Origin: Gracilaria domingensis
Lineage: Eukaryota > Rhodophyta > Florideophyceae > Gracilariales > Gracilariaceae
Assembly (NCBI GenBank): GCA_022539475.1
Contig: VCMS01000066.1
Coordinates: forward strand, 229,531 to 293,530
Length of the DNA stretch: 64,000 nucleotides
Direction of reading: 5' to 3'
Shown here: in pieces, positions 42,721 to 64,000 of the stretch
Layout of the letters: every line of letters starts with the position of its first letter
Position numbering within the stretch: the first letter of the stretch is position 1
Made by a program: the position numbers and the translations under genes
Notes under the pieces: model-generated
The model's database searches: none
What the model saw: the letters and a program-made list of their open reading frames with translations, nothing else
Told to the model about the DNA's origin: nothing

Positions 42721-42874
42721 TGTGGAGGCGGATGCAGGGGAGTGTCCCGCCACCCCAGGGACACTCCCGAACAATTTTTTTCTATATCTCCGACACCTTC
42801 CACCCCTGGACTGCGCCGTCACTCCCGCCGTCTGCGCCCACCGCTGCGCGCCGTGCGCTGCGACGCGGCGGCAA

Positions 42875-43355: not shown

Positions 43356-43766
43356 TCAATCAGAGGACAACAAAGCTTTCACAGCGTCATGAACGAGATG
43401 AAGCGCGCGTGCGCGGGAGGGAGAGCGTAGCACCATCATGGAAAGCGCCAACCCAACACCAATCCCGCGCACGAACAGTACTGGGAGCTCGTTAAGATTG
43501 TCTTTGAGCTCATCCATCGATATTCCACGCTTGAAGAGGAAGTCATATAGAGCCTCCTCGCAGGCGAAAAGTTGCGCTTCGGTACGTTCTTCGGTGGCAA
43601 CATCGTCTTCGTTCGCAAATGCGGCGTCCTCCTCGAGCTGAATGGTGTCCGCAGTAACTTCTTTTGCTTCGCTCTCGATCAGGACGGTTGATTTGGCACG
43701 CGGAACATCGGAATGGTCGGTATCGTCGTCGGTCATAGTAGCAATAACTTCGTTTGGAGTTGACAT
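43356..43766 (-). CDS. Antisense ORF in RT-B 5' LTR, acidic 136-aa protein
   Basis: 136 aa starting MSTPNEVIATMTDDDTDHSD. The first 75 residues are strongly acidic. The second half looks helical (ALYDFLFKRGISMDELKDNL, then GVGLALSMMVL). The copy in the 3' LTR (52645-53055) keeps the frame open and differs by one residue. It runs against the element's own transcription. Unknown family. Conservation between the two LTRs alone proves little because they are nearly identical DNA, so coding status needs other copies. Confidence 0.4.
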   Translation of the reverse strand: MSTPNEVIATMTDDDTDHSDVPRAKSTVLIESEAKEVTADTIQLEEDAAFANEDDVATEERTEAQLFACEEALYDFLFKRGISMDELKDNLNELPVLFVRGIGVGLALSMMVLRSPSRARALHLVHDAVKALLSSD

Positions 43767-47900: not shown

Positions 47901-48375
47901 TGTACCCACTCCAGCGCACCCCCCTCACTTCGGCATGCACAACATGCCTTTCGGTCGTACCGGGCTACTGGAGGAGGATGACGACGGCTGCTACGTGATT
48001 GCTTTCGAGGAAGAGCTTCCTCAAGAAGAGTTGTCGACGCAGGTCCCCCCACCACCTGTTAGAGAGTTGGAAGATCAACCCGACCCCTCGCAAACAGAGC
48101 CGCGTACCACTGGCTCTGGTGAAGGACACTCTACTTCACGTGATAGTGAGCCGGAGGTTGCGTGTCCCGCTCCTGAGATCAAATACTCCCTGCTAGATCC
48201 GGTCGCGATTGATGGCAAAGGTCGTATACTGGATCGAAGAGATTACCCTGCTGACACGAGTCACGAAGAAGTCATCCTCAAAAGGCTTTCACACTTGCCC
48301 AGCAGGGAGCAACAGGAACTACTTCGTGTTTTACTTGACCTTGGTGTGGTCGCCTGGTCTTTGTATGATCTTTGA
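44938..48375 (+). CDS. gag: RT-B Gag-protease with duplicated domain
   Basis: About 1145 aa from MASTWYSRGG (the open frame upstream is leader). Capsid-like helices occupy about 20-170. Two CCHC knuckles follow: CSYCSQPGHFAARC (about 243) and CGNCGKLGHSTATC (about 265). Then comes a basic stretch and an aspartic protease with LLDSGAIPNLMS (about 483) and FNVIVGCPAL. After an acidic low-complexity region come two copies of an 80-aa domain: RDLVVPVRDDVVLLRAEDV...YRRYPQPP (about 738-820) and RDPVLTIPITDEVTLLPPEEG...QIRYPVPT (about 950-1030). The ORF ends LYDL TGA; the frame then continues unchanged as PADVPVMHEF into pol. Gag, protease and pol may therefore be one polyprotein joined by readthrough, or the TGA is a mutation. 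Confidence 0.85.
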   Translation: MASTWYSRGGPGFPESGVISFDGSAVDVRKFLFYFENVATPNEEDSVRAMKLLGYLEGKAFDFYYDNYAVDGSLSIEAKDYQKVKFALIERFGAIEEPAEKIRRAVSARLDYVDLLGSLKKMDSFFDQAGFNSKAKFGLLRNAVMEFADLAQFVIFRGADDYESLKVLVKDFVGGKKALGSYGTLNAFPPAKHILQRAKEPARPSPLESKVDQLADQMAQLHLLVKKTQSAATATGRQDTEKVCSYCSQPGHFAARCELNPHRGTRCGNCGKLGHSTATCWRKNNTDVVRKVAFEGVKSESERERLLSEKRGSQNTGENQVSVVIADPSDDEDPVTTAKRDAEGEPLPKQPRTGPLSGISPVMFPESHTTRTASQQAKNPLKKSTRPRKGTGKKSKGKSRRVKIQEHVGKYNIYEELARAPSGITFGQLVRGDADEAKKDIRRILSGGFSSRRVSYAHTHSLPQTLKVVNVTVYGSSSQALLDSGAIPNLMSIALCKRLSLEMKPSSRRIVVADGTKSLVRGSLHDVSLEFGSLRVPLDFLVVEKPPFNVIVGCPALESLQACLDLGTQQVSMQFDGASVVLPLDYHRPGVVFDEENEHTDSEDFTSASESFFSDSSESDDEGYAIAFSKGKVDTSVYALNTMNEEQNSLQPPEEESANELENIGATSLSQESPSPADPQDLEEGMRQLNVNDVEPELSIATPHATGEANREFENDEESEESADDNDSEGSPSDGGHERDLVVPVRDDVVLLRAEDVRRQPDYLIFRVYRRYPQPPDREQLHPHSSELPYGEMGVLELDNSSEPIVRFGVGWPIPAPADEEPLAVPSQSEAHEDHVMVISLDNSNDEADNQLSGLAEPNDDQRRSVYHTPNPSSFQSSTTDTSLQPPDPPLSSFENNGEGEERNSGRDDEEDEDCVEVEEEVVNNGNEDDHEEDEDGSSPEEVELSGTPLYRDPVLTIPITDEVTLLPPEEGELISDFLLVRVQIRYPVPTPAHPPHFGMHNMPFGRTGLLEEDDDGCYVIAFEEELPQEELSTQVPPPPVRELEDQPDPSQTEPRTTGSGEGHSTSRDSEPEVACPAPEIKYSLLDPVAIDGKGRILDRRDYPADTSHEEVILKRLSHLPSREQQELLRVLLDLGVVAWSLYDL

Positions 48376-48393
48376 CCTGCAGATGTACCAGTC

Positions 48394-51300
48394 ATGCATG
48401 AGTTCTCACTGACGACCCAGACTCCGATACACTCAAGAGTTCGTAGGCTTCCGCCGCGACATGACGAAGTCGTCAAGAAGGAACTCGGTAAAATGCTTGA
48501 CGCTGGGATAATCAAACCTTGTACATCGCCATGGTCCTTTCCGATCGTCATTGCGACCAAAAAGGATGGCAAGCCAAGGTTCTGTGTAGACTACCGAGCT
48601 CTGAACCGAGTTATGAAAGCGGGCAGATGGCCCTTACCTCATATTGAACAAATCTTTGATGACTTGGGCGGCTGTTCGTTCTTCACTACGCTTGACCTCT
48701 TCTCCGGATACTGGCAGATCAGAATGTCACCTCGGTGTAAGGAGATGACCACCTTCGTTTGCCGTCAAGGAACCTATCAGTTTGAGGTCATGCCCTTCGG
48801 CTTGATGAACGCCCCCTCAACATTCCAAAGAATGATGGACTCTATCCTCAACAAGTATCCGTTTGTAAGGGTCTATCTGGACGACGTGGTCATCTATTCA
48901 AAAACCTTAGAGGATCACGTCGAGCACATCAAGTTAGTACTAAGGACAATTGCCTCCCATGGGTTGAAGCTGAAGATCTCTAAGTGCGACTTTGCCCATC
49001 CCAAGATTGAACTGCTCGGACATGTTGTCGACCAGAGCGGAGTTGCAGTGGACGTGAAGAAAATAGAGGCCATCAAGGCGGCTCCGATCCCTAAGACAAC
49101 CACTGAACTGAGGAGCTTTCTTGGGCTTGCTGGCTATTACCGCCGGTTTATCAAGCACTTTGCCAAAACTTCGGCAGTTCTCTATGCAGGAACGTCCGGA
49201 AATCGGAAACTAGTGTTCAACAATGAGATGGTTGAAGCCTTCAAAGACCTGAAGGAGAAGCTAACCAGTCCTCCAGTGTTGGCCTTTCCCGACTTCGAAA
49301 ATCCGTTTCGGGTCGAAACCGATGCTTCTTCATTTGCGTTGGGCGCCGTTCTCGCTCAGAAGAAATCTGATGGCATGTTTCACCCAATTCAGTATGCCAG
49401 CCGGACTATGACTGCAGCTGAAAGGAACTACGCGGTCTGTGAGCAGGAGGCGCTTGCTGTCATCTTCGCGTTCAAGAAATTTCGGCTATACCTTCTTGGA
49501 TCAAAGCCATTTCAATTGATTACAGACCATCAGGCGCTGAAGTATGCGTTTCAGAAGAAGGATGTACATGGGCGATTGGCCAGGTGGCTCGATTTCCTAG
49601 CTGAATACGAGTTCGAGGTTGTGTACCGCTCAGGGGATAAGAATTGCGCTGCTGATTATCTTTCGCGCTACTCCACAGTAAGGGGGCATCATGCTCCAGA
49701 GGTGGCGACTACTGTTTCTTCCCCTACATGTGAAGCTTTTTCAGGCCTCGAACCTTATTATGCAAATATTGGTCGATATCTGAGCGCCCTTCCGGTCGAT
49801 GAGCCCAACTCGAGCCTCAGAGGGGCGATCAAAAGGAATTCTAAGAAGTTTATGGTATGGAATGGGCAGTTGTATCGTAGAATGGGGTCCGGGTTACGAC
49901 TCCTTCCTAACGTCAATGAAAGGCGTAAACTCTTGAAAACATTTCATGACGATGTGGGACACTGGGATGTCAGGGCGACCAGAAGGCACGTCATCGATCG
50001 ATTCTGGTGGCCCAATATTCACTCTGATGTCACAACCTACGTCAAGAGTTGTGATGGCTGCCAGTTCATGGGATCTTTTCTTGCTTACCGAGCGGGGCAA
50101 CGAGCCCAGCTGACGGATATCTTCCACACGTTTTCAATTGATTTCGCTGGACCCCTCAGGGTGACGAGGAACGGAAACCGATTCTTGCTCATTGGGGTCG
50201 AGCACCTCACGGGATGGCCGATCGCAGTGGCAACTCGAACATCTACTGCAGTCGACGTAGTCAACTTTATTAGAAGGGAGATCGTCACACCCTTCGGCTA
50301 TCCCCGCACGATTGTCTCCGATAACGCTACCTCCTTTCTCGCGTCAAGTGTCCAAGCTTATCTAATGCGTCATGATATCACTCTCAAACCGGTGCTCGCA
50401 TACGCACCTATGTCTAATGGACGCGCAGAAAGAATGGTAGGGACGATCAAGAGGGCGATCGCGAAAACGATTCATGATCAGAACTCTGATTGGGATGAAA
50501 TACTCCCGGAGGTTCTCTATGGTTATCGCACTCGACAAATGGCCGAAGGATATTCTCCATTTCAGCTCATGTATGGAGTACGGCCCCGAATGCATCCATC
50601 AGATCCTGCTTCCCTGATAGCCACGCCGTCACTTGATCATCGTGAGGTGGAACTACAAGCCTCCACTCTTGGGAGGGCCACAAGGGTATTGCAGCAGCCT
50701 CGCCGTCAAGACGATGAGCGCCGTGGACATCGGTTCGCTGTTGGGGACCAGGTACTGGTAATGCGTGGTGAAGCCCTTAATCTTTCGGTGAAATGGCCAT
50801 CATTCAAATCAAAATTTTATGGACCATGCCGCGTCGTTCGGGCCAATCATCCTCGGTACATATTGGTTTCTCCACACCGACGTATGTCGAGAAGGGGCAT
50901 TCATGCGAGACGCTTAAGACCTTACCGTCCTAGACCAAGGCATATGATCCCGAGAACAGTACGATATGAAAGAAATAATCAGCCCGAAGCGGCATGCCCG
51001 GTCGTGGTACAAGGAGGACCAAATCCAACCAGACCCCCTGCTGACTATCTGAGGATAATTGTGGCTGGATGGAGACTTTCTGAATGGCTTTCCCCTGTCA
51101 GCACGAGTACAAACGATCTACAGAAGGTGGCATGGAACCTATTACATGTTTACCTTGGGACTTTCAAACGACATGGACCCTACATAACCGAGGGTCTTCT
51201 TACTAAGCTGGTCTCATTGACAGGAAGGGTGAACCCTTTCATTATACCGCTTGTGGGTCAGCAGTTTGTCTTTTACTACTATCACTTTGCGGTGGCTCGC

Positions 51301-51954
51301 TATGGACATCTTCCCCCGCAGAGAACTTACGGAGTGGAGGTGTCAAGCTTCCTGCAGCGGATTGAAGCTGGAGAGGCTTTCGAGATCGATCTGGCATATG
51401 ACCAAGATCGCGGTGACGTACCTCCTCCGCTCCAGATTGAAGAAACCACCCCAGTAACGCCGGCTCTTCTTGCAATGCCGATAATTGTTGACTACGAAGT
51501 CTACAACCAGGACGTGAACTACTTGGAAATGGAAATCGGTGGGCGTACACTTGAGAACTGGCTCTCCCCACTAGAATGTGAGGACTGGGAGAAGCATTGT
51601 ATTGTTTGGAATTGCTTTCATCTCTGCTTGAGTATTCATCTCGTATACGGTCAGTATTTTACACAGTATGCCCATGTGATGCTTGGCAGATTGGCTAGAA
51701 GGCTCCATCCGCAGATGAACAGGCTTGGCGCGGATAGGACGATATTCTTTCTATATCACTATGTCATTGGAAAGTATGGACATCTACCAGCTGCTGCGAC
51801 GCACGAAGAGCAGGTGGAAGACTACATTCGTCGTATTGAAAATCATGAAGAGTTCCTCATTGACTTTGAACCAGATCCTGAGTATCCAGAACCTCCACAC
51901 CCTTTCAGGTATACTACCGAAGAGATTTCGCGGGACGGACCCTTGGAACATTGA
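48394..51954 (+). CDS. pol: RT-B Pol: RT, RNase H, integrase, duplicated C-terminal domain
   Basis: 1186 codons from MHEFSLTT, in frame with the preceding ORF. RT: WSFPIVIATKKDG, FCVDYRALNRV, MPFGLMNAPSTFQR, VYLDDVVIYS (about 160). RNase H: FRVETDASSFALGAVLAQ, YAVCEQEALAVIFAF, ITDHQALKYAF. Integrase: FHDDVGHWDVRATR...CDGCQ zinc site (about 515), FSIDFAGPL, IVSDNATSFLA, NGRAERMVG (D, D, E). The last 300 residues hold two copies of a 120-aa helical domain (about 884-1002 and 1042-1165). They share WLSP...W...L, then a YGHLP, a T and a RIE..E.F.ID ending. No chromodomain. All catalytic acids are intact; apart from the TGA upstream, this copy looks functional. Confidence 0.92.
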   Translation: MHEFSLTTQTPIHSRVRRLPPRHDEVVKKELGKMLDAGIIKPCTSPWSFPIVIATKKDGKPRFCVDYRALNRVMKAGRWPLPHIEQIFDDLGGCSFFTTLDLFSGYWQIRMSPRCKEMTTFVCRQGTYQFEVMPFGLMNAPSTFQRMMDSILNKYPFVRVYLDDVVIYSKTLEDHVEHIKLVLRTIASHGLKLKISKCDFAHPKIELLGHVVDQSGVAVDVKKIEAIKAAPIPKTTTELRSFLGLAGYYRRFIKHFAKTSAVLYAGTSGNRKLVFNNEMVEAFKDLKEKLTSPPVLAFPDFENPFRVETDASSFALGAVLAQKKSDGMFHPIQYASRTMTAAERNYAVCEQEALAVIFAFKKFRLYLLGSKPFQLITDHQALKYAFQKKDVHGRLARWLDFLAEYEFEVVYRSGDKNCAADYLSRYSTVRGHHAPEVATTVSSPTCEAFSGLEPYYANIGRYLSALPVDEPNSSLRGAIKRNSKKFMVWNGQLYRRMGSGLRLLPNVNERRKLLKTFHDDVGHWDVRATRRHVIDRFWWPNIHSDVTTYVKSCDGCQFMGSFLAYRAGQRAQLTDIFHTFSIDFAGPLRVTRNGNRFLLIGVEHLTGWPIAVATRTSTAVDVVNFIRREIVTPFGYPRTIVSDNATSFLASSVQAYLMRHDITLKPVLAYAPMSNGRAERMVGTIKRAIAKTIHDQNSDWDEILPEVLYGYRTRQMAEGYSPFQLMYGVRPRMHPSDPASLIATPSLDHREVELQASTLGRATRVLQQPRRQDDERRGHRFAVGDQVLVMRGEALNLSVKWPSFKSKFYGPCRVVRANHPRYILVSPHRRMSRRGIHARRLRPYRPRPRHMIPRTVRYERNNQPEAACPVVVQGGPNPTRPPADYLRIIVAGWRLSEWLSPVSTSTNDLQKVAWNLLHVYLGTFKRHGPYITEGLLTKLVSLTGRVNPFIIPLVGQQFVFYYYHFAVARYGHLPPQRTYGVEVSSFLQRIEAGEAFEIDLAYDQDRGDVPPPLQIEETTPVTPALLAMPIIVDYEVYNQDVNYLEMEIGGRTLENWLSPLECEDWEKHCIVWNCFHLCLSIHLVYGQYFTQYAHVMLGRLARRLHPQMNRLGADRTIFFLYHYVIGKYGHLPAAATHEEQVEDYIRRIENHEEFLIDFEPDPEYPEPPHPFRYTTEEISRDGPLEH

Positions 51955-51994
51955 TCAAAACCGTAAGTTCATGGTCGCCCAGGCGTAGCGACCG

Positions 51995-52009
51995 CTGAGT
52001 TGGGGAGTG
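51995..52009 (+). promoter_or_regulatory. RT-B polypurine tract
   Basis: GAGTTGGGGAGTG directly before the 3' LTR start at 52010; purine-rich apart from two T's. Position fits the plus-strand primer. Confidence 0.6.
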
Positions 52010-54004
52010 TGTGGAGGCGGATGCAGGGGAGTGTCCCGCCACCCCAGGGACACTCCCGAACAATTTTTTTCTATATCTCCGACACCTTCCACCCCTGGAC
52101 TGCGCCGTCACTCCCGCCGTCTGCGCCCACCGCTGGGCGCCGTGCGCTGCGACGCGGCGGCAAGGATGATGAGGTTTCGCGCCGCGCGCCGCGGCGCGCC
52201 CCCGACGGAGATGAAGAAGTCGCGCGCCGCTCGCTGCGGCGCGCCTGAAGAGGAGGATGATGAGGTTTCGCGCCGCGCGCCGCGGCGCGCCCCCGACGGA
52301 GATGAAGAAGTCGCGCGCCGCTCGCTGCGGCGCGCCTGAAGAGGAGGATAATGAGGTTGCGCGTCGCGCGCCGCTGGCTGCGGCGCGCCCGCCGCTAAAC
52401 AGTCTTTGGAAGCTCGCGCCCCGCACGTTGCGGCGCGCCAGCTGCAGGGTAGGAAAAGGAACGTGCGCGCAGCACCTGACGCTGGAGGACAGTGAGTGGA
52501 GCGCTCTCTTCGGGGGAGCTCAGAAAGTTGTGGCGCGCTCTGTCGCGCGCGTCGCAACACATACGACCAGGGGATACAAATCAATTTAATCGAGAAGCAG
52601 GAGTTCTATGACAAAGAGGCAATCGAAGATACGAGAAATGGATATCAATCAGAGGACAACAAAGCTTTCACAGCGTCATGAACGAGATGAAGCGCGCGTG
52701 CGCTGGAGGGAGAGCGTAGCACCATCATGGAAAGCGCCAACCCAACACCAATCCCGCGCACGAACAGTACTGGGAGCTCGTTAAGATTGTCTTTGAGCTC
52801 ATCCATCGATATTCCACGCTTGAAGAGGAAGTCATATAGAGCCTCCTCGCAGGCGAAAAGTTGCGCTTCGGTACGTTCTTCGGTGGCAACATCGTCTTCG
52901 TTCGCAAATGCGGCGTCCTCCTCGAGCTGAATGGTGTCCGCAGTAACTTCTTTTGCTTCGCTCTCGATCAGGACGGTTGATTTGGCACGCGGAACATCGG
53001 AATGGTCGGTATCGTCGTCGGTCATAGTAGCAATAACTTCGTTTGGAGTTGACATCGTTCAAAAGATGGACACCTGAAAGGCGGTGGTAAGATAGGGGAA
53101 GCATGGCAGACCTGAGAGGCACCGAAGGGTAACTATAATATCGAATATACCGCCATGATAACTGGTCACGCACGCACAATCGTGATAGTGCCACGATGGC
53201 ACGACATGGAAGGTGGATGTCATCCGGAGGACTAGTTGAAAACCTAAATAGCCAGAAGAAATCTGGCCAACCACCGACCTACATAACGAAGAACCGTACG
53301 TTGACATTATTACCTATTATGGACATGGTGAGCAATATTAAGTTGTTTGTCACAAGACGACAATCGGCGCACCGTATCACCAACAGCCAATGAACAGGAG
53401 ACATAACGAAGAACCGTACAACGGTATCACAACCAAGTATATGACCTGGTGAGCCGTTCTGAATGCCTTGGTGAAAGATGATATTAGGTGTTCGCTTGCG
53501 GTGACCATGCATTATCACAATTGTAGATATAAACCCCCGAGTTCGAGCGCTCGCTGCAAACTCAACTCGGGCAGACCACTTCCCCTCTGGACGACTTCCC
53601 CCATCCTTGCCTCTCTCGCCTTTCTTCCTCCCCTTCCGTCGTCGCCAACCTTCTTTCCTTTGGCACTCCCACCTTCCCTCAGCGCAGTCTGCGCCTCCCT
53701 GCCACCAACCTTTCCCCCTACATTTCCTTATTCCCGGCGGCCCGGTCTCCCGCCGTTCCCTACACAGTCGCCTTGTGCTGCCCTCCATTAGGCTCGTCCG
53801 CACATTGCGATCATATCTACATCCCCGTTTTCTCGGACGGACGTGGGCAGTGTTACGCATTGCACTGGTTCCATTCCTGTCGCCACCTCGCCTGGTTGTT
53901 AGGTTTGTGGTGGTATCGACGACAGAATCGAACGCCTTAGCCCTGCCCATTCTACTGTTCCGCCGACAGCCTTGGTTTGTTGGTCTGTTGGCGCTGCATT
54001 CTGT
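52010..54004 (+). repeat. RT-B 3' LTR
   Basis: Matches 42721-44715 base for base at an offset of 9289, with about five substitutions (for example near 52136, 52515, 52705 and 53979). The right end meets RT-C's first bases (TGTAG at 54002); the shared TGT blurs the junction. Confidence 0.9.
52645..53055 (-). CDS. Antisense ORF in RT-B 3' LTR
   Basis: Second copy of the acidic 136-aa LTR ORF at 43356-43766, with one residue changed. Same caveats. Confidence 0.4.
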   Translation of the reverse strand: MSTPNEVIATMTDDDTDHSDVPRAKSTVLIESEAKEVTADTIQLEEDAAFANEDDVATEERTEAQLFACEEALYDFLFKRGISMDELKDNLNELPVLFVRGIGVGLALSMMVLRSPSSARALHLVHDAVKALLSSD

Positions 54005-54573
54005 AGTATAGCCCGGCCAGATCAACGGGGGCTCTACAAGACCAAGTGGTGACGTCACGGGCTCCCGGGCACGTGTGCCTATTGTACCACGTGGGACGCG
54101 TAAGCGCAGGCTTGGACAAGACTAATTAGTCTATTTTCGTTAATTTAGAATTAATATTTACTCGGTAGTGTAGATATGTGGCCGGGGTGGTGCACCACAA
54201 ATGCACCTCCCGGTGGCCCACGTGGCACTAGGCCCGTGAGAGCCGGAGGGGCGCTCGGGTGTACTAAACCCCCGAGACGCCAACCTCCCACACCAAATGG
54301 TAAAGTCAAGCACCAACTAGGCTGATTTGACACCAGTTCGGTTCTACAGTCACCAATTGGTAAGTCTAGTAGTCCTCTAATAGTTTTGCTGACCTCGAGG
54401 GTTATACGTGCCTGCCGCACACCAGTGCAGGCGTATTTACCACTTGGTCACCGTGCACTATAGGCAACGGTGGGTGCTGCCGACCTATTAGGTGTCACGC
54501 GTTTCACTCCTCCGCCGGGTCGAGCCCACGCGGGGCTCCCCACTAGCAGCTCGCACCGATCGGTTATACCACA
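54002..54573 (+). repeat. RT-C 5' LTR
   Basis: Starts TGTAGTATAG (as RT-A's starts TGTAG) and ends TATACCACA, five bases before the primer-binding site. The partner LTR is outside the window, so the borders rest on TG..CA, the PBS and likeness to RT-A. Confidence 0.6.
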
Positions 54574-54578
54574 TATTT

Positions 54579-54596
54579 TGGTCTCCCGACCTAGAA
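54579..54596 (+). promoter_or_regulatory. RT-C primer-binding site
   Basis: TGGTCTCCCGACCTAGAA, differing from RT-A's site at one of 18 positions. Confidence 0.8.
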
Positions 54597-54706
54597 TTTG
54601 TGGATTACCAAGTGGTTTTTGGAAAGGGGGGATTTGGAAGTCACGAAATACCTGAGTGGTTTGGTCGCCGTTGCCGAAGCAATGTGCTCCGACACCAGTT
54701 ACCTAA

Positions 54707-56974
54707 ATGGAGAAACGGAGCGTCCGTCACCCGAAAAGGGCGCCGAGCGCTCCACCAAGTGGCCACCCCGTACGGGGTTCGGTGTCCTATCCGGTGTTGG
54801 ATAACCCGGAGGACCTGATTCGGAAGGAACGCCCACCGAGGGGGAAGAAGGTAGACCGAGAGGCTGGGGGCCCCTCGACGCTTCCCCGGGCTGACCAAGT
54901 GGCCGAAGGAGCAGGCTCCGCAACGGAGGAGCCCGCTCCTGTAACAACCCCAGTGGTAGACCAAATGGAGGTGCCAGTCGGACCGCGACTGGACTTGGAC
55001 GAGGTCACCCGAGTGGTAGTTGATCGAGCCTCCCAGGAGGTCCTCGACAAGGTACCTGTGGTGGTGTTACAGTACCTCGAGAACGAGGTACGAGGACACA
55101 TCGACCGATTGGTTATGCTGGCTCTGCAGCAGCAGGGGGCTAAGCTTCAACCTGAGATGGTGGCGCAGGCCGCGCTCATGAAGCAATCTCCCCCGCCTGC
55201 AGTAGACGCCACCACACCACTTGGTATTCTCCACCCTAACCTTCCTACACAACCGACTGGTGAAGGATTTATCGACCGCATGGGGAAAGGGGCCGAGCCT
55301 CCAGGGATGGAGGGCCCGAGGTACGTTTACCTCCCCCAACCTACTGGTGTAGCTCCGTCAGGACCAAGTGGTGGAGACCCTGATGAAGATTCGTCGAGCT
55401 CAGGAGACGAGCGTCGACGTAAACCAAATGGTAAGAAGAAGAAAACCAAAAGGGGAAAGAGAAAGAGTCGCCGGTCGGACTCGGACTCTTCGTCCTCAGA
55501 CACCGATTCGGATTCGTCAGGAGACGACGACCGTACAGGTTCACGACGCAAGAGGAAGGACTCTCGCAAGAAGAAAGGAAAGAATCCCCGTAAGGGTAAG
55601 ACCAAAAGGTATAACGATTCGGACTCAACTTCCGACGAGGAGACTGACCTAGAGGTGCTTACGCCGCTCAATGATTTATTCACCAAAGCGGTTGACTATC
55701 GTACCTATAGGTTAGAGAATAGACAGGCTGAGTATACCAAAGAGGTAGCTCAGAAGATAACGAAGCATCATAGGAAGCTTCGTTTCCAACTTGGTGAAAC
55801 TCGCTTTAGCGGGGATGACCCTATTGCGATCATTGATTTCCTTCAAAGGTTCAAGATCGCTTGTGATCAAAATGGGTTTTCAGAGGCAGCAGCCATGTGG
55901 CTGTTTCAATTCTACCTAACTGGTCAGGCTGGAGCGTTGCTCCACAGCCGCCTCCAAGGAAACACCATGGCGGTGGACGAAGACCAAACGGAAATGTTGA
56001 CAACATACCCACAGGTGGTTAACTTCCTACTGGAAACCTACGCGACCGATGAGGTAATCCAGGAGGCGTACGCAGAGGTGCTTGCGTACCGCCAGCGCGC
56101 GGGACAAACCGAATTGGAATTCGCTCGCTCCTTATGGGCATTAGCCTCCGGCTGTGGAAGCGTCTTTACTACCAAAAGGTTGAAATCGATGTACGCCGAC
56201 AACGTGGCGAAGTCTATCCGATCACAGGTTCGTAACTACCTAGCTACCAACCGCACGGTCGACTACAACGCACTAGCCCGCCATGCACAGGGACTAGGCG
56301 ACACCGTTCGGTCAGGGGCCAGGAAAGACTCCGCACCACTTGGCAAACCATCGAAGGAGAAAGGAAAAACCAGGCGGTCAGTGTTTGACGTAGAGGAAGA
56401 GGAGACCACTACGGGGGAGGCGTCCACACAATACGCCTCCCAGGGTCACCCAGTCCACTTGGTGCATGCACAACCGACAACTAGATCGCACGGTAATACC
56501 TCTTGGTCCAGCTCGCTATCCAGCGAGCCACCCTCGAGACAAACCTCAGCTCCACCATCACAGGTATCCGTACCGGTCAGCCCGGTCCTAGCGGTACCAT
56601 TCAAGCAATATGGTGAACGAGGACCATCCCCGCAGCAACGGAGTGCAGTACCTATTGGAGGCCGTCCCCCATCGCGCGCGTCGTCGCTCGCGATGAAGGA
56701 CCCCACAACCGGCAATCTCCTCTGTTGGTTCTGTTTGTCGCCCCACCACTTGGCAACAGCGTGCCCAAGTGTGGCTCCGCAGAACAGGAACGCTCTCCTG
56801 ACTGCTCGCCAGCAGAACCACCAGGATATATTTGGGCCCACGGCGCGGAGCGCAGGCACGGGACACGCAAATGCGCGACCCAATGCAGCCACACCTCATC
56901 AGGTACACCTCGTTACGGAGCAGGACCAAACGGATCCCGCCCCGCAGGCGGAAAACGCCGAACAGTTGGGATAG
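54707..56974 (+). CDS. gag: RT-C Gag
   Basis: 755 aa from MEKRSVRHPK. The N-terminal third is Pro/Gly/Val-rich. A Ser/Asp then Lys/Arg-rich block follows (about 225-305). The capsid core begins at about 360 (FSGDDPIAIIDFLQRFKIAC, as in RT-A). One CCHC knuckle, CWFCLSPHHLATAC, lies at about 672. The tail overlaps pol by 250 nt. Its last codons, GCG GAA AAC GCC, contain the proposed slip site, and the TAG (56972-56974) falls within the proposed pseudoknot, in the first loop. Confidence 0.88.
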   Translation: MEKRSVRHPKRAPSAPPSGHPVRGSVSYPVLDNPEDLIRKERPPRGKKVDREAGGPSTLPRADQVAEGAGSATEEPAPVTTPVVDQMEVPVGPRLDLDEVTRVVVDRASQEVLDKVPVVVLQYLENEVRGHIDRLVMLALQQQGAKLQPEMVAQAALMKQSPPPAVDATTPLGILHPNLPTQPTGEGFIDRMGKGAEPPGMEGPRYVYLPQPTGVAPSGPSGGDPDEDSSSSGDERRRKPNGKKKKTKRGKRKSRRSDSDSSSSDTDSDSSGDDDRTGSRRKRKDSRKKKGKNPRKGKTKRYNDSDSTSDEETDLEVLTPLNDLFTKAVDYRTYRLENRQAEYTKEVAQKITKHHRKLRFQLGETRFSGDDPIAIIDFLQRFKIACDQNGFSEAAAMWLFQFYLTGQAGALLHSRLQGNTMAVDEDQTEMLTTYPQVVNFLLETYATDEVIQEAYAEVLAYRQRAGQTELEFARSLWALASGCGSVFTTKRLKSMYADNVAKSIRSQVRNYLATNRTVDYNALARHAQGLGDTVRSGARKDSAPLGKPSKEKGKTRRSVFDVEEEETTTGEASTQYASQGHPVHLVHAQPTTRSHGNTSWSSSLSSEPPSRQTSAPPSQVSVPVSPVLAVPFKQYGERGPSPQQRSAVPIGGRPPSRASSLAMKDPTTGNLLCWFCLSPHHLATACPSVAPQNRNALLTARQQNHQDIFGPTARSAGTGHANARPNAATPHQVHLVTEQDQTDPAPQAENAEQLG

Positions 56975-59900
56975 AGGCCTTCCCCAACTGTCCGAAGACG
57001 GAAGGCCTTCCAGAACCAAGTGGTGCAAGTATGGACAATTACCCATTGGTTACAGGGGAGGAGAGCCTCATGGACGGCACCGAACCGATATGCTTTCTCA
57101 AGCATAGTAACTATAAGGTAAACGTCACCCTCGGGTTTACTTCTAACCACTTGGTACCATGCGTCACTGTCCTGGACACCGGGGCAGGACCTAATCTGGT
57201 GAATGCCAAACTATTAACTAACAGACAACTTAATAAGCTTCAGCCATGTACATTAACTAACCCACTGGTTGACGCCAACAACAGACCACTAACCGTCATG
57301 GGAGCGCTTACCATAATGGTATTGATTGACACCATGAGGGTCCGAGTTCGCTTCATAGTCGTTAACCAACTGGCAACAGACTGTATCCTCGGCACAACTT
57401 TTATAGACCAGCATGTCAGGGCAATTTTTCCACGTTCTAAGACAGTTCTGTTCCATAATGGCCCCCGGATCGCCATTATTGGTAACCACAAGGGTGCCTC
57501 TCCGAAAGAGAACCGCACTCGACACCAACCGGTCCCGGAAAACACACTCTCCAACAAGGTGCGATTGGCAAAGGCGGTAACAATACCGCCTATGAACCAC
57601 TTGGTAGTGAAGGTCACATGCCAACAACCTGGCCTGTTATCCGTTCAGAACCATTCACGGTTGGCCGAACGACACATGACCTTAATGGCGAATGGTATAG
57701 TCGACAACATACCGACAAAACCGTTTCAGGTCTACCTGAGTAACTTCAGCAACCGCCCGGTCAAGTTGCCAAAGCACACCGTAATTGGTCTTGCCTTACC
57801 GGCTCCCCGTACGATCTTTACAATTATACCACAATGGTCCCACGAGGTCGTGGATGCTAAGGAAGGGGGGGGCAGTGTCAATTCGTTGAATTCGTCGCGA
57901 ACAGACCATATGGTGCAGCGACTAGCTGAGCGAGAAGACCAGAAACTGGAGCTCGACCCAGTGACCAATTGGAAGACGGAGGTGAATATAGGACTTGAAG
58001 GGGAAGAGCTCAGAGCTCGGATCCTTGGACTCCTGGAGCCATTCAGTACCATGTGGTCGGGTAAGCTGGGAGCCATTAAGGCCACCCAGCACAGGATTGA
58101 CCTCAAACCGGACTCCCGTCCCATCCACCAACAGCCATACCGCGCGGGACATAAGGCCCGTGAGGTAGAGCTGGAGGAGGTAGAGCGGATGCTCCGCGAG
58201 GGGGTTATAGAACCGGCAAACTCGGAATGGGCTAGCCCTGTAGTGCTAGTCCAAAAACGAGGAGAGACCCGTATGAGGTTCTGTATTGACTACAGAAAAC
58301 TTAATGCCGTAACGGTAAGGGACTCGTACCCCATCCCGAGGATGGATGAATGCATCGACTCCCTAGGAGATGCGAACATCTTTACCACACTGGACGCCAA
58401 CTGCGGGTATTGGCAGATCGAAATACCAGAGGGTGACCGTGATAAGACTGCGTTTACATGCCACGCAGGCCTGTATCGCTTCTTACGCATGCCGTTTGGT
58501 TTAAGAAACGCCCCCGCTACCTTCCAAAGGGCGTTAGACATCATACTGTCTAAAGTGAAGTGGACAACCGCATTGGTATACATAGATGACGTAGTCATCT
58601 ACTCGAGGTCCATAGAGGAGCACTTCTCGCACGTCCAAGTGGTACTGCAGTTGCTACAAGAGGCAGGCGTGACCCTCAAACTACGAAAGTGTATGTTCTT
58701 CAACCAAGAGGTAGAGTACCTAGGGCATACAATAAGCCCCGGGAAACTCGAAGTGACCAAACGGAATATCCGAGCGGTACAGGAAGCGAAGCTCCCTACG
58801 TCGCAGACGGACATACGATCCTTTATAGGTCTATGCAACGTCTACCGGCGGTTCATCAAGGGTTTTGCAAAGATAGCCGCACCCCTGAACCGGAGGTTGC
58901 AGAAGGGGCAGCCCACACACTTTGACCACCTGGAAGAGGACGAGGTAGAGGCGTTCTATACATTGAAAGCAGCGCTTCTCTCCCCACCGGTACTGGCATT
59001 GCCCAAAACGGGACTCCCGTATACACTGGACACGGATGCGTCGGACGCCCAAATAGGTTGCTGCCTAATGCAGGAACAGGAGGACGGCAAGCTCGCACCA
59101 ATTGGGTATTGGAGTAGAGCTCTTAACCAAGCGGAGCAGAACTACACCGTAACGGAGAAGGAATGCCTAGCGGTTGTTTGGAGCATGCTCATGCTACGTC
59201 CTTACCTATATGGTGTGCGCTTCACGCTCCGAACGGATCACGACTCCTTGAGGTGGATATTAGGCTTGGCGGACGCATCGGGTCGTCTGGCCCGATGGCG
59301 TCTGAGACTCTCGGAGTTTGAGTACGATGTGCAGTACCGCCCCGGGGTCAAGCACCGAGTGGCGGATGCATTGTCCCGGTTGAATACCGAAGGATTGGAC
59401 ACTGACCCAGTGGACGACGACATCCCATGCTTTACTATAGAACCAGCTAACCACGAGGTCAATGAAGTTCTGAAGGGATACTGGCATGATGACAGTACGT
59501 ACCAAGTGGTAGTGGAGACCCTCCTTCCTGTGGAGGAAGGGGAACACGCTCCAATCACCCGTGAGGAATTCTTACGCGAACAATCGACCGATAGGTTGTG
59601 CAAAACGCTCGCTGACGTACTTGGAAGGAAGGATTCTCATTTCGACGTCGACCACAATGGGTACCTCATCAGACGCTCACCTTTAGACGGAGCTCTCCAG
59701 AAGGTCGTACCTGAGTCATTAAGACAAAGGGTGTTATATCTGTCACACAATCCACGGCTTTCGGGACACCCTGGAGCCACGCGGTTGTACTATACCCTTC
59801 GGAGGCAATTCTACTGGCCGCATATGGCTAACGATGTATATACCTATGTGGCGCAATGCAATTCGTGCATTAAGACCCGAGGTGGTGTGGCGAAGCACAG

Positions 59901-61275
59901 GAAGTACCTAAAGCTATTCCCGGCGGCGGGGCCCCTGGAATTCGTAGCAATCGACATACTGGGGCCCCTGCCCAAGACCTCAGAGGGTTACCGCTTTGTA
60001 GTAGTCATAACCGACAGGTTCACAAAGCTCACCAGAGCCATACCTCTGAAGAACCAAACGGCAACGACACTAGCGACAGCCTTCCTGGAGAATTGGGTCT
60101 ACCCGTACGGTGCTCCCATGTACCTACTGACCGATAACGGTTCGAACCTAGCTTCTAAGTTCTTCGAGGCGGTTTGTACAATGCTAGGGGTCAAGCACTA
60201 CTTTACCACGGCCTATCATCCGCAAACAAACGGCCAAGTGGAACGCTTCAATAAGACCCTAGTGGCACGCCTACGGCACTATGTCGAAGAGCACCAAACC
60301 ACATGGTCGGAGTATGTCCAACCATTGACATATGCGTACAACCTCCAGGTCCACAGGGTCACTCAAACAACCCCATTCGACCTGGTACTTTCGCGAACAC
60401 CACATGGTATTATCGTCCAGCCCGGACCTGACCGCTCGGAAGCGGCCGGGACACTCACACCGGCGAAGGTCAAGAGAAACATACTCCAGAAGTTACGCGC
60501 CGCTTTGGCTGCTGCCAAAGTTAAGATGACAGCAGCCCAAGAACGGTATAAAGCGGACTATGACCGAACGGTGAGCAAAGTGACCAAAGTGGTAGCAGGA
60601 GACATGGTCTTCCTTGACGTGCCACCAAAAGGTAAGCGACCAACCCCAGCGGAGATGGAAGAGGACATCCGCCTTGAGGAGGATATCAATTCTAAACTAC
60701 TACCCAAGTCCACGGGACCATACAAGGTGATTCGCTCCGACGAGCATACCGCTACGGTCATAATGGAAGGTTTGGAGAACACGGTCTCCATCGACAGGAT
60801 TGTCAAGGCCGCACAACCGACGACAGCGAATGCACAACCAATAGGTGAGCCAACGCAGCAAGAAGCGGAGAGGGAGCAAACGTCTCCCATACCCCCTCCT
60901 ATGATGAGTCAGCCGAGCGGTCAACCTTCCACCAGAGCCGTAACGGCTGACCCCACGACCCAAGCGGCACAGGAGATCGAGCCTCGGCAAGACCAACGGG
61001 TCACACCACCCACGGGGAGCCACGCACCCCATGACCAAATGGAAGAGTCACACCCTCAAGTAGACACTCAGGAGTGCGCTATTGACACCATTGTAGGTCA
61101 CGAACACACCACAAAGGGTATGCGCTACCGGGTAAGATGGTATGGATGGTCGCCCGAGCACGACTCTATGGAACCACCTGGTCATATCCCTAACAACTTC
61201 ATCATCCGATACTGGCGCAAACAAGGGCGAACGCCCCCACCAACTGGTATTGCTTCGCGTGGTACGCGTCGCTAA
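56725..61275 (+). CDS. pol: RT-C Pro-Pol with chromodomain (-1 frame)
   Basis: Open frame of 1516 codons; real synthesis probably enters by -1 frameshift near 56956, not at the first codon. Protease: TVLDTGAGPNLV (about 148), intact DTG. Linker: PFQVYLSNFSNRPVKLPKH. RT: WASPVVLVQKRGETRMRFC, MPFGLRNAPATFQR, YIDDVVIYS (about 619). RNase H: YTLDTDASDAQIG, YTVTEKECLAVVW, RTDHDSLRWI. Integrase: LSHNPRLSGHPG...CNSCIK zinc site (about 1004), EFVAIDILGPL, LLTDNGSNLASKFF, NGQVERFNK, then STGPYKVI (GPY/F). Chromodomain: IDTIVGHEHTTKGMRYRVRW, then YGWSPEHDSMEP (about 1450-1500). All catalytic residues are present. This is the best-preserved coding module in the window. Confidence 0.95.
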   Translation: MVLFVAPPLGNSVPKCGSAEQERSPDCSPAEPPGYIWAHGAERRHGTRKCATQCSHTSSGTPRYGAGPNGSRPAGGKRRTVGIEAFPNCPKTEGLPEPSGASMDNYPLVTGEESLMDGTEPICFLKHSNYKVNVTLGFTSNHLVPCVTVLDTGAGPNLVNAKLLTNRQLNKLQPCTLTNPLVDANNRPLTVMGALTIMVLIDTMRVRVRFIVVNQLATDCILGTTFIDQHVRAIFPRSKTVLFHNGPRIAIIGNHKGASPKENRTRHQPVPENTLSNKVRLAKAVTIPPMNHLVVKVTCQQPGLLSVQNHSRLAERHMTLMANGIVDNIPTKPFQVYLSNFSNRPVKLPKHTVIGLALPAPRTIFTIIPQWSHEVVDAKEGGGSVNSLNSSRTDHMVQRLAEREDQKLELDPVTNWKTEVNIGLEGEELRARILGLLEPFSTMWSGKLGAIKATQHRIDLKPDSRPIHQQPYRAGHKAREVELEEVERMLREGVIEPANSEWASPVVLVQKRGETRMRFCIDYRKLNAVTVRDSYPIPRMDECIDSLGDANIFTTLDANCGYWQIEIPEGDRDKTAFTCHAGLYRFLRMPFGLRNAPATFQRALDIILSKVKWTTALVYIDDVVIYSRSIEEHFSHVQVVLQLLQEAGVTLKLRKCMFFNQEVEYLGHTISPGKLEVTKRNIRAVQEAKLPTSQTDIRSFIGLCNVYRRFIKGFAKIAAPLNRRLQKGQPTHFDHLEEDEVEAFYTLKAALLSPPVLALPKTGLPYTLDTDASDAQIGCCLMQEQEDGKLAPIGYWSRALNQAEQNYTVTEKECLAVVWSMLMLRPYLYGVRFTLRTDHDSLRWILGLADASGRLARWRLRLSEFEYDVQYRPGVKHRVADALSRLNTEGLDTDPVDDDIPCFTIEPANHEVNEVLKGYWHDDSTYQVVVETLLPVEEGEHAPITREEFLREQSTDRLCKTLADVLGRKDSHFDVDHNGYLIRRSPLDGALQKVVPESLRQRVLYLSHNPRLSGHPGATRLYYTLRRQFYWPHMANDVYTYVAQCNSCIKTRGGVAKHRKYLKLFPAAGPLEFVAIDILGPLPKTSEGYRFVVVITDRFTKLTRAIPLKNQTATTLATAFLENWVYPYGAPMYLLTDNGSNLASKFFEAVCTMLGVKHYFTTAYHPQTNGQVERFNKTLVARLRHYVEEHQTTWSEYVQPLTYAYNLQVHRVTQTTPFDLVLSRTPHGIIVQPGPDRSEAAGTLTPAKVKRNILQKLRAALAAAKVKMTAAQERYKADYDRTVSKVTKVVAGDMVFLDVPPKGKRPTPAEMEEDIRLEEDINSKLLPKSTGPYKVIRSDEHTATVIMEGLENTVSIDRIVKAAQPTTANAQPIGEPTQQEAEREQTSPIPPPMMSQPSGQPSTRAVTADPTTQAAQEIEPRQDQRVTPPTGSHAPHDQMEESHPQVDTQECAIDTIVGHEHTTKGMRYRVRWYGWSPEHDSMEPPGHIPNNFIIRYWRKQGRTPPPTGIASRGTRR
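56950..57008 (+). promoter_or_regulatory. RT-C -1 frameshift cassette: slip site plus H-type pseudoknot
   Basis: Slip heptamer GGAAAAC (56950-56956; zero frame GAA AAC). Spacer of 5 nt. Stem 1: ACAGTTGGG (56962-56970) with CCCAACTGT (56983-56991). Its 12-nt loop ends in AGGCCTTC (56975-56982), which pairs perfectly with GAAGGCCT (57001-57008) as stem 2. Loops: 4 nt, 0 nt and 9 nt. A -1 shift here leads exactly from gag into pol. The heptamer is near-canonical (GGA instead of three equal bases at the P-site slip). Confidence 0.7.
57859..57872 (+). promoter_or_regulatory. RT-C internal polypurine-tract-like sequence 1
   Basis: AAGGAAGGGGGGGG in the protease-RT linker, the same place as RT-A's tract at 29858. 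It encodes AKEGGG in the pol frame. Confidence 0.45.
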
Positions 61276-61288
61276 GGAAGGGGGGGGG
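61274..61288 (+). promoter_or_regulatory. RT-C internal polypurine-tract-like sequence 2
   Basis: AAGGAAGGGGGGGGG overlapping the end of pol (TAA at 61273-61275) and preceding the antisense module. RT-A has one at the matching place (33076). Confidence 0.5.
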
Positions 61289-61386
61289 TTATCGAAGCCG
61301 TTGAACGCCACGCTACACGAAAAGCTAACTAACTAACCTAACAGGAAAACAAAAGAAGATCAGAGATCACAATGCAAGACACTTTA

Positions 61387-62721
61387 TTAGTCGAGAAGAA
61401 TCCACGAGAGGGAACCACGAGGTGACTTAGGAGGCCTTGGAGGACCCACGGCCACGTCCGCGTCCACGACTGGTTCCACGACCGCGACCACGTCCACGGG
61501 AGGTCCCGCGAGATGAAGCGGAACCTCCACGACCAGAGGACACCGACATAGGTCCGGCGGAGCTTCCGCCCCCGCCGCTAGCCGCGCTCGTGGCGCACCA
61601 CCACTTGGTAAGGGAGCAGAAGTACCAGCAGGTCCCGCAGGGGTACCGCTGCTGACTACCGGCATGGTATTCGCAGGACCAGTGGGTGGATGGAAGGAAG
61701 GCGGTAAGCTAGACGGAGGGATGCCACCAGAGGTCGGAGGAGCAAGACCACTAGACGGCCCTGCACCGGGGGTCAGACCAGTAGGCGGCCTAGGAGCACC
61801 GGACGTCGGCGGAAGCGGAGCCGAACGGAAACCAGTTGAGAAACCACTTGGTGCTCCTGTCCCAGTACTTGCTGGAGGAAGAGGAACGTTGTGAGGACCA
61901 AGCGGAGTATGGAAAGGTGCCGAAGGATCACCACCAGGAGGTCCACCAGGGAGTTGATACGTACCAAGGCCACCAAAGCCTACCATTGGGGTCGCAGGTT
62001 GCTGTGACGCAGGAGCGTACGGGTTGAAACTTTCCACAGGGGGTCGATGTAACGGCGCGTGGCCTTCCACAAGGTTGCTCAACTGACCAACATAGGCTGT
62101 CACCTCACGGTAGAGATTGCGCTGGAAGTAGTCGCGGAACTGTCGCAGCTCAGAAGTGCGCCGCTCGTGGTGAGCAACCACGGGGAGCAAGTTGGTAAGA
62201 GTATCCACAGCGGTGAGGATGTCATTTGGACCAGGACGGTTGAAGTGCACCATCGAGGCGTGGTTGAGACGAGCCAGAGCGCTCCGTATCGCGCCACTAT
62301 CACCACCAGGGGGCACCGGATTCACCGGAAGCGACTGGAAACCAACCCGAAGAGGCCCCTGGGCAGCCCGTCCGGGAGGGTGAGCAGCCGCCTGAGGGTT
62401 CGCCGGACCACTTGGAACAGGCGCAGCCACGCTGGTCGGAGGAGTAGCCTGTACAGGTGCCGACGGAGGCAATGCGGGGGACTCATAGTTCTCGGCAGCC
62501 ACCATCACGGTATCGTCATTACCAAATGGGTCTTCGCCAGCCATGTGCTGCTGTTGGAGAGGCACGATGCTATGAACCTCCGGGTCGTAGACATCCCAAC
62601 CCTGTTCAGGCCCCCAATTGTGGTTACTTACCGCAGTGAGGTAACCATCCAACTGCTGCGCAGTATATTTGGTGCCCTCCACGATGTTGGAGAGCCCCAT
62701 GGCACGAATGTCGCCGACCAC
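61387..62721 (-). CDS. RT-C antisense accessory protein, C-terminal frame
   Basis: 444 codons on the strand opposite pol. It opens with VVGDIRAMGLSNIVEGTKYTAQ, homologous to RT-A's LRNVIRSLDL segment, then becomes Pro/Gly/Ala/Ser-rich for about 300 residues. It overlaps the upstream frame (62628-63563) by 94 nt, and a one-base shift near 62740 would join them. Near its end another frame reads SSRGTSRGRGRGRGTSRGRG, an RGG/GR-type RNA-binding-like tail, which suggests a second indel near 61560. Non-AUG start, so it is a continuation and not a separate gene. Confidence 0.6.
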   Translation of the reverse strand: MVGDIRAMGLSNIVEGTKYTAQQLDGYLTAVSNHNWGPEQGWDVYDPEVHSIVPLQQQHMAGEDPFGNDDTVMVAAENYESPALPPSAPVQATPPTSVAAPVPSGPANPQAAAHPPGRAAQGPLRVGFQSLPVNPVPPGGDSGAIRSALARLNHASMVHFNRPGPNDILTAVDTLTNLLPVVAHHERRTSELRQFRDYFQRNLYREVTAYVGQLSNLVEGHAPLHRPPVESFNPYAPASQQPATPMVGFGGLGTYQLPGGPPGGDPSAPFHTPLGPHNVPLPPASTGTGAPSGFSTGFRSAPLPPTSGAPRPPTGLTPGAGPSSGLAPPTSGGIPPSSLPPSFHPPTGPANTMPVVSSGTPAGPAGTSAPLPSGGAPRARLAAGAEAPPDLCRCPLVVEVPLHLAGPPVDVVAVVEPVVDADVAVGPPRPPKSPRGSLSWILLD

Positions 62722-63563
62722 ATCGTTGGGAATATTGAAGATACGACCAACTGGTTGAGTTCCGCTGATCCGACAGACTTGTCAGGGCAGCGCGTGTCCC
62801 AAGTCACACCTTCCACGGAAGCCTGAAGGGCGAGGATAGCCACCATGACGGCCCACTCGCTGCGCGCGACCGACCAAACGGCATATGCGTTGTTCCTCTC
62901 GAGGGAGATGCTACTACCAAAGTACGCAAGGACCGGCGGGGTCGGCACTTCCAGCCACTGACATACTTCATAGTGGTCCCACCAAGAGGGTCGATTGACA
63001 TACCATGTCCGGCGGTTGTGGTCGCTCTGCGACCAATACTCAACGTTGTGGAACAGGAACATGGTCCGCGTACGGTTGTTACGGTGACGAACACGGCTCT
63101 CAGCCATCGCATCGGTCGCCCACCTCCCACGGTCAGTCCAATAATTGGTATCTAAAGGGCGCTCAAACGCGACGTACTCCAGATCGACCTCGATGTGCGT
63201 AGCAGGTTCGTCCAAGCGGTGAAGGATATCTACCAAACGGCGGAAGTAGTGGACCTCCCCATCGCAGCGGATGAAGGGGAGATCCGACGGTAACGGCCCA
63301 CGGGGGATGTTATGTATAGAAACTGTCGTGCTGTCGCTGTGCCCCGCGCCATGGAAACCTGTTGTGCGACCGAACGGGCTGCCTGCTTTCTCGGCCCTTT
63401 GCGTGTGGAGGTAGGTGCCATAGGCACCGCCTCCAACCGGCGACATCCAACGGGCAATTGCGGTATATTGACTGCGTGAGACCCATGTGGCGGACGCAAG
63501 GGAACTTAGGTGAGGAACTGTGTTATGTGGATAAAGGCCGCAGTTCCCGCAGAAGGCGACCAA
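62628..63563 (-). CDS. RT-C antisense accessory protein, N-terminal frame
   Basis: 311 codons. Contains FHNVEYWSQSDHNRRTWYV, PSWWDHYEVCQWLEVPTPPV, then LERNNAYAVWSVARSEWAVM. These line up with the RT-A antisense product (PSWWAHYEV..., EYWMLFIAEWAVRV). Trp/Tyr/Arg-rich, likely globular, no known family. A further open frame upstream (63891-63523) may continue the N-terminus with a shift. Two related elements preserve this protein on the minus strand despite divergence in DNA, which argues that it is or was functional. Confidence 0.65.
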   Translation of the reverse strand: MVAFCGNCGLYPHNTVPHLSSLASATWVSRSQYTAIARWMSPVGGGAYGTYLHTQRAEKAGSPFGRTTGFHGAGHSDSTTVSIHNIPRGPLPSDLPFIRCDGEVHYFRRLVDILHRLDEPATHIEVDLEYVAFERPLDTNYWTDRGRWATDAMAESRVRHRNNRTRTMFLFHNVEYWSQSDHNRRTWYVNRPSWWDHYEVCQWLEVPTPPVLAYFGSSISLERNNAYAVWSVARSEWAVMVAILALQASVEGVTWDTRCPDKSVGSAELNQLVVSSIFPTMWSATFVPWGSPTSWRAPNILRSSWMVTSLR

Positions 63564-64000
63564 TTCGCGGAGATATGCGCAAAGCTGGCACGCATAGGTG
63601 GGCTATGCGGCTGCCCCGTGCGTCTATTAAGGTCATGAAGGATTCAGCTGTTTGAGTCGCTCCATCCGTACTCTGGCTATAACGCGCAAGAGGGTTTAAA
63701 CTGTTGCTCGGACGCCGCGCGGCGGCTGCGTAGGGATCATACGCCACGCGGAATCGGCGTAAGGGTCTTGACGAGACGCGTATTGCGATCCGTGTGTTAG
63801 GCCTTGGAAGTATTTGCCACCGTGCTGCCATGCGGCCACGCGCTACCCGCCAGGTGGTGCTTGTCAGACATCCCTCGATCCGGGAGGCCAACTAGTTTCG
63901 CGAAACCGAACGGTTGACCTCCGCCGAGGGGGAGAACCTTCAGAAGCGCGAATATCTCTTTTATAGGGTGCGTAGCGCGTCCTGCCAATACCAAGTGGTT
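63564..64000. other. RT-C upstream end of antisense region, cut by window
   Basis: Holds a 122-codon minus-strand ORF (63891-63523) in a different frame from the antisense protein, plus more ACCA..TGGT motifs. The 3' LTR is expected just beyond 64000. Confidence 0.4.

Follow-up and report, generated by a model that had tools for sequence, protein, structure and literature searches.

The window analysed here, a stretch of 64,000 nucleotides from the florideophyte red alga Gracilaria domingensis (contig VCMS01000066.1 of assembly GCA_022539475.1, positions 229,531 to 293,530 of the forward strand), holds the long terminal repeat (LTR) retrotransposons RT-A, RT-B and RT-C. The last of these carries short palindromic sites throughout its length, together with a gene on the opposite strand, placed between pol and the 3' LTR and directed toward pol, the position known from the plant Tat/Retand elements. 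The parts of RT-C are the following, in window coordinates, with open reading frames given as ORFs:

54000..64000, no strand: motif field of ACC-N4-6-GGT / CCA-N2-TGG everted palindromes, 124 sites with near-overlaps merged
54000..54574, forward: remnant of the 5' LTR; 54000-55349 matches 1653-3000 of C27 at 96%, and the LTR of C27 ends at 2227
54707..56974, forward: gag-like ORF of 755 amino acids with a CCHC-like knuckle recognised by eye; a Pfam scan of this ORF gave 0 matches
56725..61275, forward: pol ORF with reverse transcriptase, RNase H, H2C2, integrase and a marginal chromodomain
61387..62721, reverse: antisense ORF P0002, the C-terminal part of the antisense protein
62628..63563, reverse: antisense ORF P0003, the core of the antisense protein, its frame broken near residue 267
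63533..64000, forward: start of the 3' LTR, an 80% match to 11-427 of C27, cut by the contig end

The pol domains stand in the order reverse transcriptase, RNase H, integrase and then chromodomain, which is that of Ty3/gypsy chromovirus-like elements, the chromodomain being marginal at 25.6 bits for a cut-off of 25.1.

A preliminary description of this DNA had reported RT-C to be saturated with CCAANNGG and related words, and the counts bear this out. Between 54041 and 63999 there are 43 starts of CCAANNGG and 18 of CCNNTTGG (61 in all), against 8 and 10 (18) in the remaining 54 kb. Counted jointly over 54000-64000 the two words occur 58 times, compared with 7.3 in 300 dinucleotide shuffles (standard deviation 2.8, maximum 18), which rules out base composition as the cause. 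The most over-represented 8-mer found de novo in RT-C is CCAAGTGG, with 20 occurrences on both strands for 0.88 expected. As had been stated, the sites run through the LTR, through gag and pol and through the antisense gene. ACC-N4-6-GGT reaches 8 to 16 per kb there, and 0.2 per kb in the unenriched left 25 kb of the window. They are spread over all three reading frames, and synonymous-codon shuffles, which preserve both the protein sequence and the codon use, fall far short of the observed numbers: for CCAANNGG/CCNNTTGG, gag has 17 vs 5.2 and pol 25 vs 7.1, and for ACC-N4-6-GGT, gag has 27 vs 6.3 and pol 47 vs 11.4, with 0/500 shuffles reaching the count in each case. Synonymous shuffles, applied to gag, pol and the antisense ORFs, thus rule out codon or amino-acid use, which the preliminary description had already doubted. 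The sites showed no helical phasing.

Although the words first named are enriched, the unit behind them is not a fixed word. In a blind scan of all palindromes with 3-base half-sites (spacers 0-8 in RT-C, 0-12 in the other elements), the RT-C unit emerged as an everted pair, ACC-N4-GGT occurring 58 times vs 3.8 in shuffles and CCA-N2-TGG 42 times vs about 3.3-3.5, with a spacer preference of 4 > 5 > 6. The core reduces to CC-Nk-GG, a palindrome of half-sites with a variable spacer. Only this order is enriched, the reverse order GG-Nk-CC and the direct repeat CC-Nk-CC staying below z 3 in 15 stretches. The two asymmetric centres, AG and CT, have the same frequency in RT-C, where ACCAAGTGGT and its complement are found 6 and 6 times; genome-wide, ACCAAGTGGT has 1688 occurrences on both strands and the pattern read backwards 139. 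Symmetric half-sites, the restriction to the CC..GG order and the balanced asymmetric centres fit the recognition of double-stranded DNA by a symmetric binding pair.

The two other retrotransposons of the window allow a direct comparison, and their parts are these:

25575..37372, no strand: RT-A motif field, TCC-N6-8-GGA and other CC-N6-9-GG palindromes
25575..26282, forward: left LTR of RT-A (at least this part), 92% identical to 36666-37372
29846..33055, forward: RT-A pol with reverse transcriptase, RNase H and integrase
34867..35580, reverse: RT-A antisense ORF P0011, core part
35641..36585, reverse: RT-A antisense ORF P0010, N-terminal part
36666..37372, forward: right LTR of RT-A (at least this part), forming the LTR pair
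42719..54004, forward: RT-B, a young Ty3 element with an LTR pair at 99.75%, used as a negative control

The earlier statement that RT-A shows few copies holds only for the RT-C word. RT-A has its own version of the field, TCC-N6-8-GGA being present 70 times vs 13.5 in shuffles, with a core spacer of 6 to 9. RT-B, which has protease, reverse transcriptase, RNase H and integrase domains, shows no palindrome field in its body (44764-51954, the part covered by the counts), but its LTRs contain a cluster of another kind, a GC-rich 91-bp tandem with CGC/GCG palindromes at 42874-43085 and 52163-52374. The same type of palindrome occurs in L059, a piece beyond pol of an RT-B-like element. This cluster, confined to the LTR in RT-B, may be a separate type of signal.

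Palindrome saturation is a property of the clade that includes RT-A and is not special to RT-C, as had been supposed. The sample comprised 14 antisense-bearing Ty3 elements of about ten families, namely RT-C, RT-A and 12 elements fetched from the genome: C (L043), Cfar (L048), F26 (L040, L042), F31 (L045), F2 (L041), F169 (L046), F37 (L047), A4 (L044), and L049, L050 and L051 (the last two of one family), which were picked by reverse-transcriptase search alone. A CC-containing everted palindrome exceeds the best of 100 shuffles in 14/14 of them and in 0/6 antisense-free controls, the latter being the RT-B body, the RT-B-like L058, copia L054-L056 in whole and bases 1-2740 of copia L057; the copia pieces are only 2.7-3.7 kb long. 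The 14 include four pairs of close relatives (RT-C/L043, L040/L042 and A6/A7 of the same families, F169/F37 with a common pol), and 11/14 were chosen through the preliminary description or the antisense gene. The three elements (two families) taken from 150 places of the reverse-transcriptase search, with the antisense gene ignored, all have both gene and field (3/3). An antisense homolog was sought over the whole of RT-B, L058, L059 and L054-L057 and none was found, while four positive controls were detected. Copia L057 was at first positive (CCGn2CGG, 6 vs 0.5); its sites at 2779-3618 (spacer 2 or 3) overlap or adjoin a stretch that matches the F26 and F31 elements, and counting was therefore limited to bases 1-2740. 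Bases 1-512 match A5, and recounts over 1-2740 and 513-2740 gave no field in either.

Each lineage writes the palindrome in its own grammar, defined by the core spacer k and the base flanking the core. The spacer peaks at 4 in RT-C and F26, at 4-5 in F2, at 5 in Cfar, at 6 in F169, F37, RT-A, A4, A6 and A7, and at 9 in A5; F31 is mixed, its bare core having the greatest z at 9 and its top palindrome being CCG-N2-CGG, that is, k = 4. The C clade and A4 have A as the flanking base; in the F clades CC is followed by G. Thus, RT-C has ACCA half-sites with k = 4, its relative with 72% pol has ACC with k = 5, and CCG half-sites are combined with k = 4 in F26 and F31 and with k = 6 in F169 and F37, so that at least five grammars stand side by side in one genome. 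In F26, CCG-N2-CGG reaches 66 vs 4.3 in shuffles. Synonymous shuffles with each element's own motif exclude codon use in pol of RT-A, A5, A6, A7, F26, F169 and F37 and in one A4 pol piece. The F26 element L040 (G000:C26) also has a second over-represented word, ATTAGTGTGG (7 vs 0.01), beside CCGNNCGG.

Comparison of homologous pol positions, in which the four core bases of sites were set against off-site CC and GG, gives a measure of site turnover; the samples are small and overlapping, and F31 has no row, as no pol match was found for it. Between elements of the same or neighbouring spacer, cores were kept in 11/16 sites from A1 to A6 (33% expected), 10/15 from A1 to A4 (25%), 9/14 from A4 to A6 (32%), 7/13 from Cfar to C (24%), 8/24 from C to Cfar (18%) and, non-significantly, 11/31 from A6 to A1 (29%). 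All six non-independent comparisons are above the off-site level (four with p < 0.05, one 0.053, one 0.27). Different spacers give a mixed picture, with no excess from A5 to A6 (9/27 vs 30%) or from F26 to F169 (3/29 vs 21%). Retention of a site as the partner family's own motif, which by definition is zero when spacers differ, as with A5, was left out of account. Selection thus seems to hold the sites while the grammar lasts, and less once it changes.

The antisense gene is conserved as well. A genome search with the RT-C antisense ORF returned at least 132 matching stretches, in some cases fragments of a single copy, and in the RT-C family at least 23 matches are in one open frame of 935-946 amino acids, the window copy being split into P0003 and P0002. 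The related genes group into several clades with a common core (BLASTP identities of 30 and 38%). A profile of the other clades alone gave no convincing match to the RT-A clade antisense; a single profile-profile comparison joined the RT-A clade to the rest at 96.5% and an E value of 7.6e-10, and single A-clade proteins, searched against a small set of targets, recover the RT-C antisense ORF at E about 1e-7. For the core, the ratio of non-synonymous to synonymous substitution rates (dN/dS) is 0.36-0.75 between the window copy and 28 genomic copies plus L043, values that all use the same broken window copy and so are not independent; L016 (at least 95% identical or unmatched) and L048 (saturated) were left out. 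Conservation extends to another genus: a six-row antisense alignment searched against a set of 5.8 billion proteins, in which scoring was confined to the 7987 candidates with the most shared words, had one match, BWQ96_10536 of Gracilariopsis chorda, with 48% identity over 84% of the F26 antisense protein. Together with 14 phycobilisome-linker matches in the genome, this match marks the host as a red alga, probably of the Gracilariales. Region 240-640 of the RT-C antisense protein alone found no match among 5270 candidates of the protein database, and a PDB search with P0003 returned a single non-significant match (E 0.94). The C-terminus is RG-rich in L043 of the RT-C family, in F2, in F31 and in the G. 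chorda protein.

Taken together, these data suggest the following mechanism. RT-C is a member of a Ty3-type clade, hosted by a florideophyte red alga, whose elements encode an antisense protein between pol and the 3' LTR. This protein may bind DNA as a symmetric pair on the everted half-sites CC-Nk-GG, whose neighbouring base and spacer are family-specific. Such sites have built up from end to end of the element, at about one per 80 bp in RT-C, and the protein could then coat the DNA of its own family and so distinguish its own copies. The most likely benefit would be that host silencing is lifted across the entire element, as VANC does for VANDAL. The preliminary description had named, by analogy with VANC, an element-coded protein, with the antisense protein as one candidate, as a possible reader; the co-occurrence of gene and field (14/14 vs 0/6) speaks for that proposal at the level of association. 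The antisense protein is favoured by RT-B and the copia controls, which have pol and lack both its gene and a CC-GG field. Judged from these sequence comparisons, that protein is rather probably the reader in one role or another, and that its binding relieves silencing is a serious possibility, albeit one just short of probable. A broader, tentative proposal is nearly as plausible: the sites would form a self-recognition code, in which each family has a private palindromic address written over the whole element, coding sequence included, and read by its own antisense-coded protein. A shift in the protein's preference for spacing or flank would be followed by rewriting of the sites, and families within one genome would thereby stay mutually invisible.

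Several observations weigh against the antisense protein as reader or blur the picture. Gag and pol are transmitted jointly with the antisense gene, so that co-variation with the motif does not single out the antisense protein. F169 and F37 are 96.6% identical in gag-pol DNA and only 49% identical in their antisense proteins, with an unchanged grammar that is present in both antisense regions; the gene appears to have been swapped, or to evolve very fast, beneath a constant motif, and the case decides neither for nor against the antisense protein as reader. The divergence itself lies at 5583-7646 of L046 and 949-2832 of L047. No known DNA-binding domain was found in the antisense protein by Pfam search, and an AlphaFold model from a 4-row alignment was uninformative (pLDDT, its local confidence score, of 36.7). 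Spacer use is graded, with no strict single length. The F2 field is weak (CCG-N2-CGG 29 vs 6.5), and in the F2 antisense gene the motif count of 11 vs 5.2 is reached by 3/400 shuffles. Core retention leans upward despite different spacers from A1 to A5 (8/16 vs 24%, p 0.02) and from A6 to A5 (11/31 vs 23%, p 0.08), and RT-B, which has no antisense gene, has the palindromes of the other type in its LTRs.

Among the alternatives, the antisense protein might read the motif for another step of the life cycle, such as element transcription, nuclear entry or packing of the double-stranded complementary DNA (cDNA), or the tethering of new copies to old ones. Sites over LTR and body alike (8-16 per kb) would suit a full-length coat of the DNA as well as they suit anti-silencing, and the present results do not separate the two; a pure promoter role, in turn, needs no sites throughout pol. 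Retroviral antisense proteins and those of plant Retand elements have been proposed as regulators, according to the parts of PMC11963269 and PMC7264820 drawn on here. On balance such a role is unlikely, without being far-fetched. A minor chance likewise attaches to Gag or integrase as the reader, for instance in packing cDNA or in steering integration into the element's own copies. The grammar follows pol as much as it follows the antisense protein, and the lengths of integrase target-site duplications resemble the spacers of 4-6 bp; the A5 spacer of 9, however, does not suit a duplication length, and RT-B, with protease, reverse transcriptase, RNase H and integrase, and the copia controls, with their pol, lack the field.

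A host protein that the elements evolved to recruit, also raised in the preliminary description, is very doubtful. Some transcription factors typically have palindromic CC/GG half-sites, yet the several grammars in one genome argue against a single host reader and would require several host factors, and there is no enrichment in the left 25 kb of the window. Still less can be said for the absence of any reader, with the sites produced by mutation, by hairpin-templated template switching during reverse transcription or by deamination. Quasi-palindrome correction does make everted repeats with short loops, but the top palindromes are CC/GG half-sites and not inverted repeats in general, which rules out general inverted-repeat mutation; deamination of CpG from CCGNNCGG to CCANNTGG is ruled out by observed/expected ratios in RT-C of 0.92 for CpG and 1.05 for TpG/CpA; the RT-B and copia bodies lack the pattern; and site cores were retained above off-site CC and GG in every same- or neighbouring-spacer comparison. 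The unskewed dinucleotides and the family-specific grammars thus disfavour the mutation bias considered earlier. Hairpins of the genomic RNA that act as packaging signals are scarcely credible: CC-N4-6-GG could form mini-hairpins, but the inner pair is symmetric as well (CCA-N2-TGG in RT-C, CCG-N2-CGG in F26), which leaves two-base loops, and the asymmetric centres are equal in both orientations.

From the perspective of known systems, VANDAL transposons with their VANC proteins are nearest in the possible mode of action. According to the portions of PMC5735166 drawn on here, VANDAL motifs lie mainly outside coding sequence, frequently as tandem repeats with a single orientation, and binding by VANC is shown; the system is also treated in PMC10398659. 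Both cases have a short, family-specific motif that is dense in the element's own copies and that changes between families alongside an element-coded protein. VANDAL elements, however, are Mutator-like DNA transposons, whereas the elements considered here are LTR retrotransposons with reverse transcriptase and integrase, and their palindromes are dispersed through all coding frames; the layout of the RT-B LTR cluster (local, tandem, non-coding) is nearer to that of VANDAL. A likeness to VANC-type proteins was looked at through Pfam, where no family matches the antisense protein at E values up to 1. Given the difference in element class and motif layout, the red algal elements are not members of VANDAL.

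In anatomy, the nearest systems are the plant Tat/Retand/Grande elements, which have a conserved antisense ORF between pol and the 3' LTR for which DNA binding has been proposed, with no established role, as described in the parts of PMC11963269 and PMC7264820 used here; motif saturation is not reported for Retand or Grande in those parts. Retand has a TRP28 domain (PF04195), which the same Pfam search did not find in the red algal antisense protein, and it belongs to the non-chromoviruses, while RT-C pol has its marginal chromodomain. With Ty3/gypsy chromovirus-like elements RT-C shares reverse transcriptase, RNase H, integrase and chromodomain, and it differs from them in its additional antisense gene and in motif saturation. 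Searches of an open-access literature set turned up no title or abstract opening on motif-saturated LTR retrotransposons or on antisense element genes of red algae. The elements carry putative binding sites of the antisense protein, more than 100 in RT-C and in versions that differ by family, and its function is thereby directly testable by a binding assay with family swaps. They also offer a natural series for how a protein that binds DNA changes jointly with its numerous target sites, and they show coding sequence shaped by a second, DNA-level code across whole elements. If the proposed reading is true, the system would be an independently arisen LTR-retrotransposon counterpart of VANC and would give a function to antisense retrotransposon genes.

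With regard to the boundaries of the elements, paired LTRs, a Ty3/gypsy trait, are present in RT-A, in RT-B and in the RT-C relative on C27 (99.4%). RT-C itself runs off the contig end, and only parts of both its LTRs are visible. It starts inside its own 5' LTR, where the 3' LTR of RT-B stops (54000-54004), and a match to the RT-C LTR sought at 37000-42800 was not found; this start is a truncation, a rearrangement or an assembly joint. The closest relatives of the RT-C reverse transcriptase by identity (59-68%), among the 120 matches listed, are unnamed metagenome proteins, many of them with a chromodomain. Runs of closely spaced copia copies occur on several contigs (G000:C435, C447, C344). 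Elsewhere in the window, the reverse strand has a DDE_1 transposase-like ORF at 1885-2901 and an ORF of 1381 amino acids with a DEAD helicase domain at 14152-18297.

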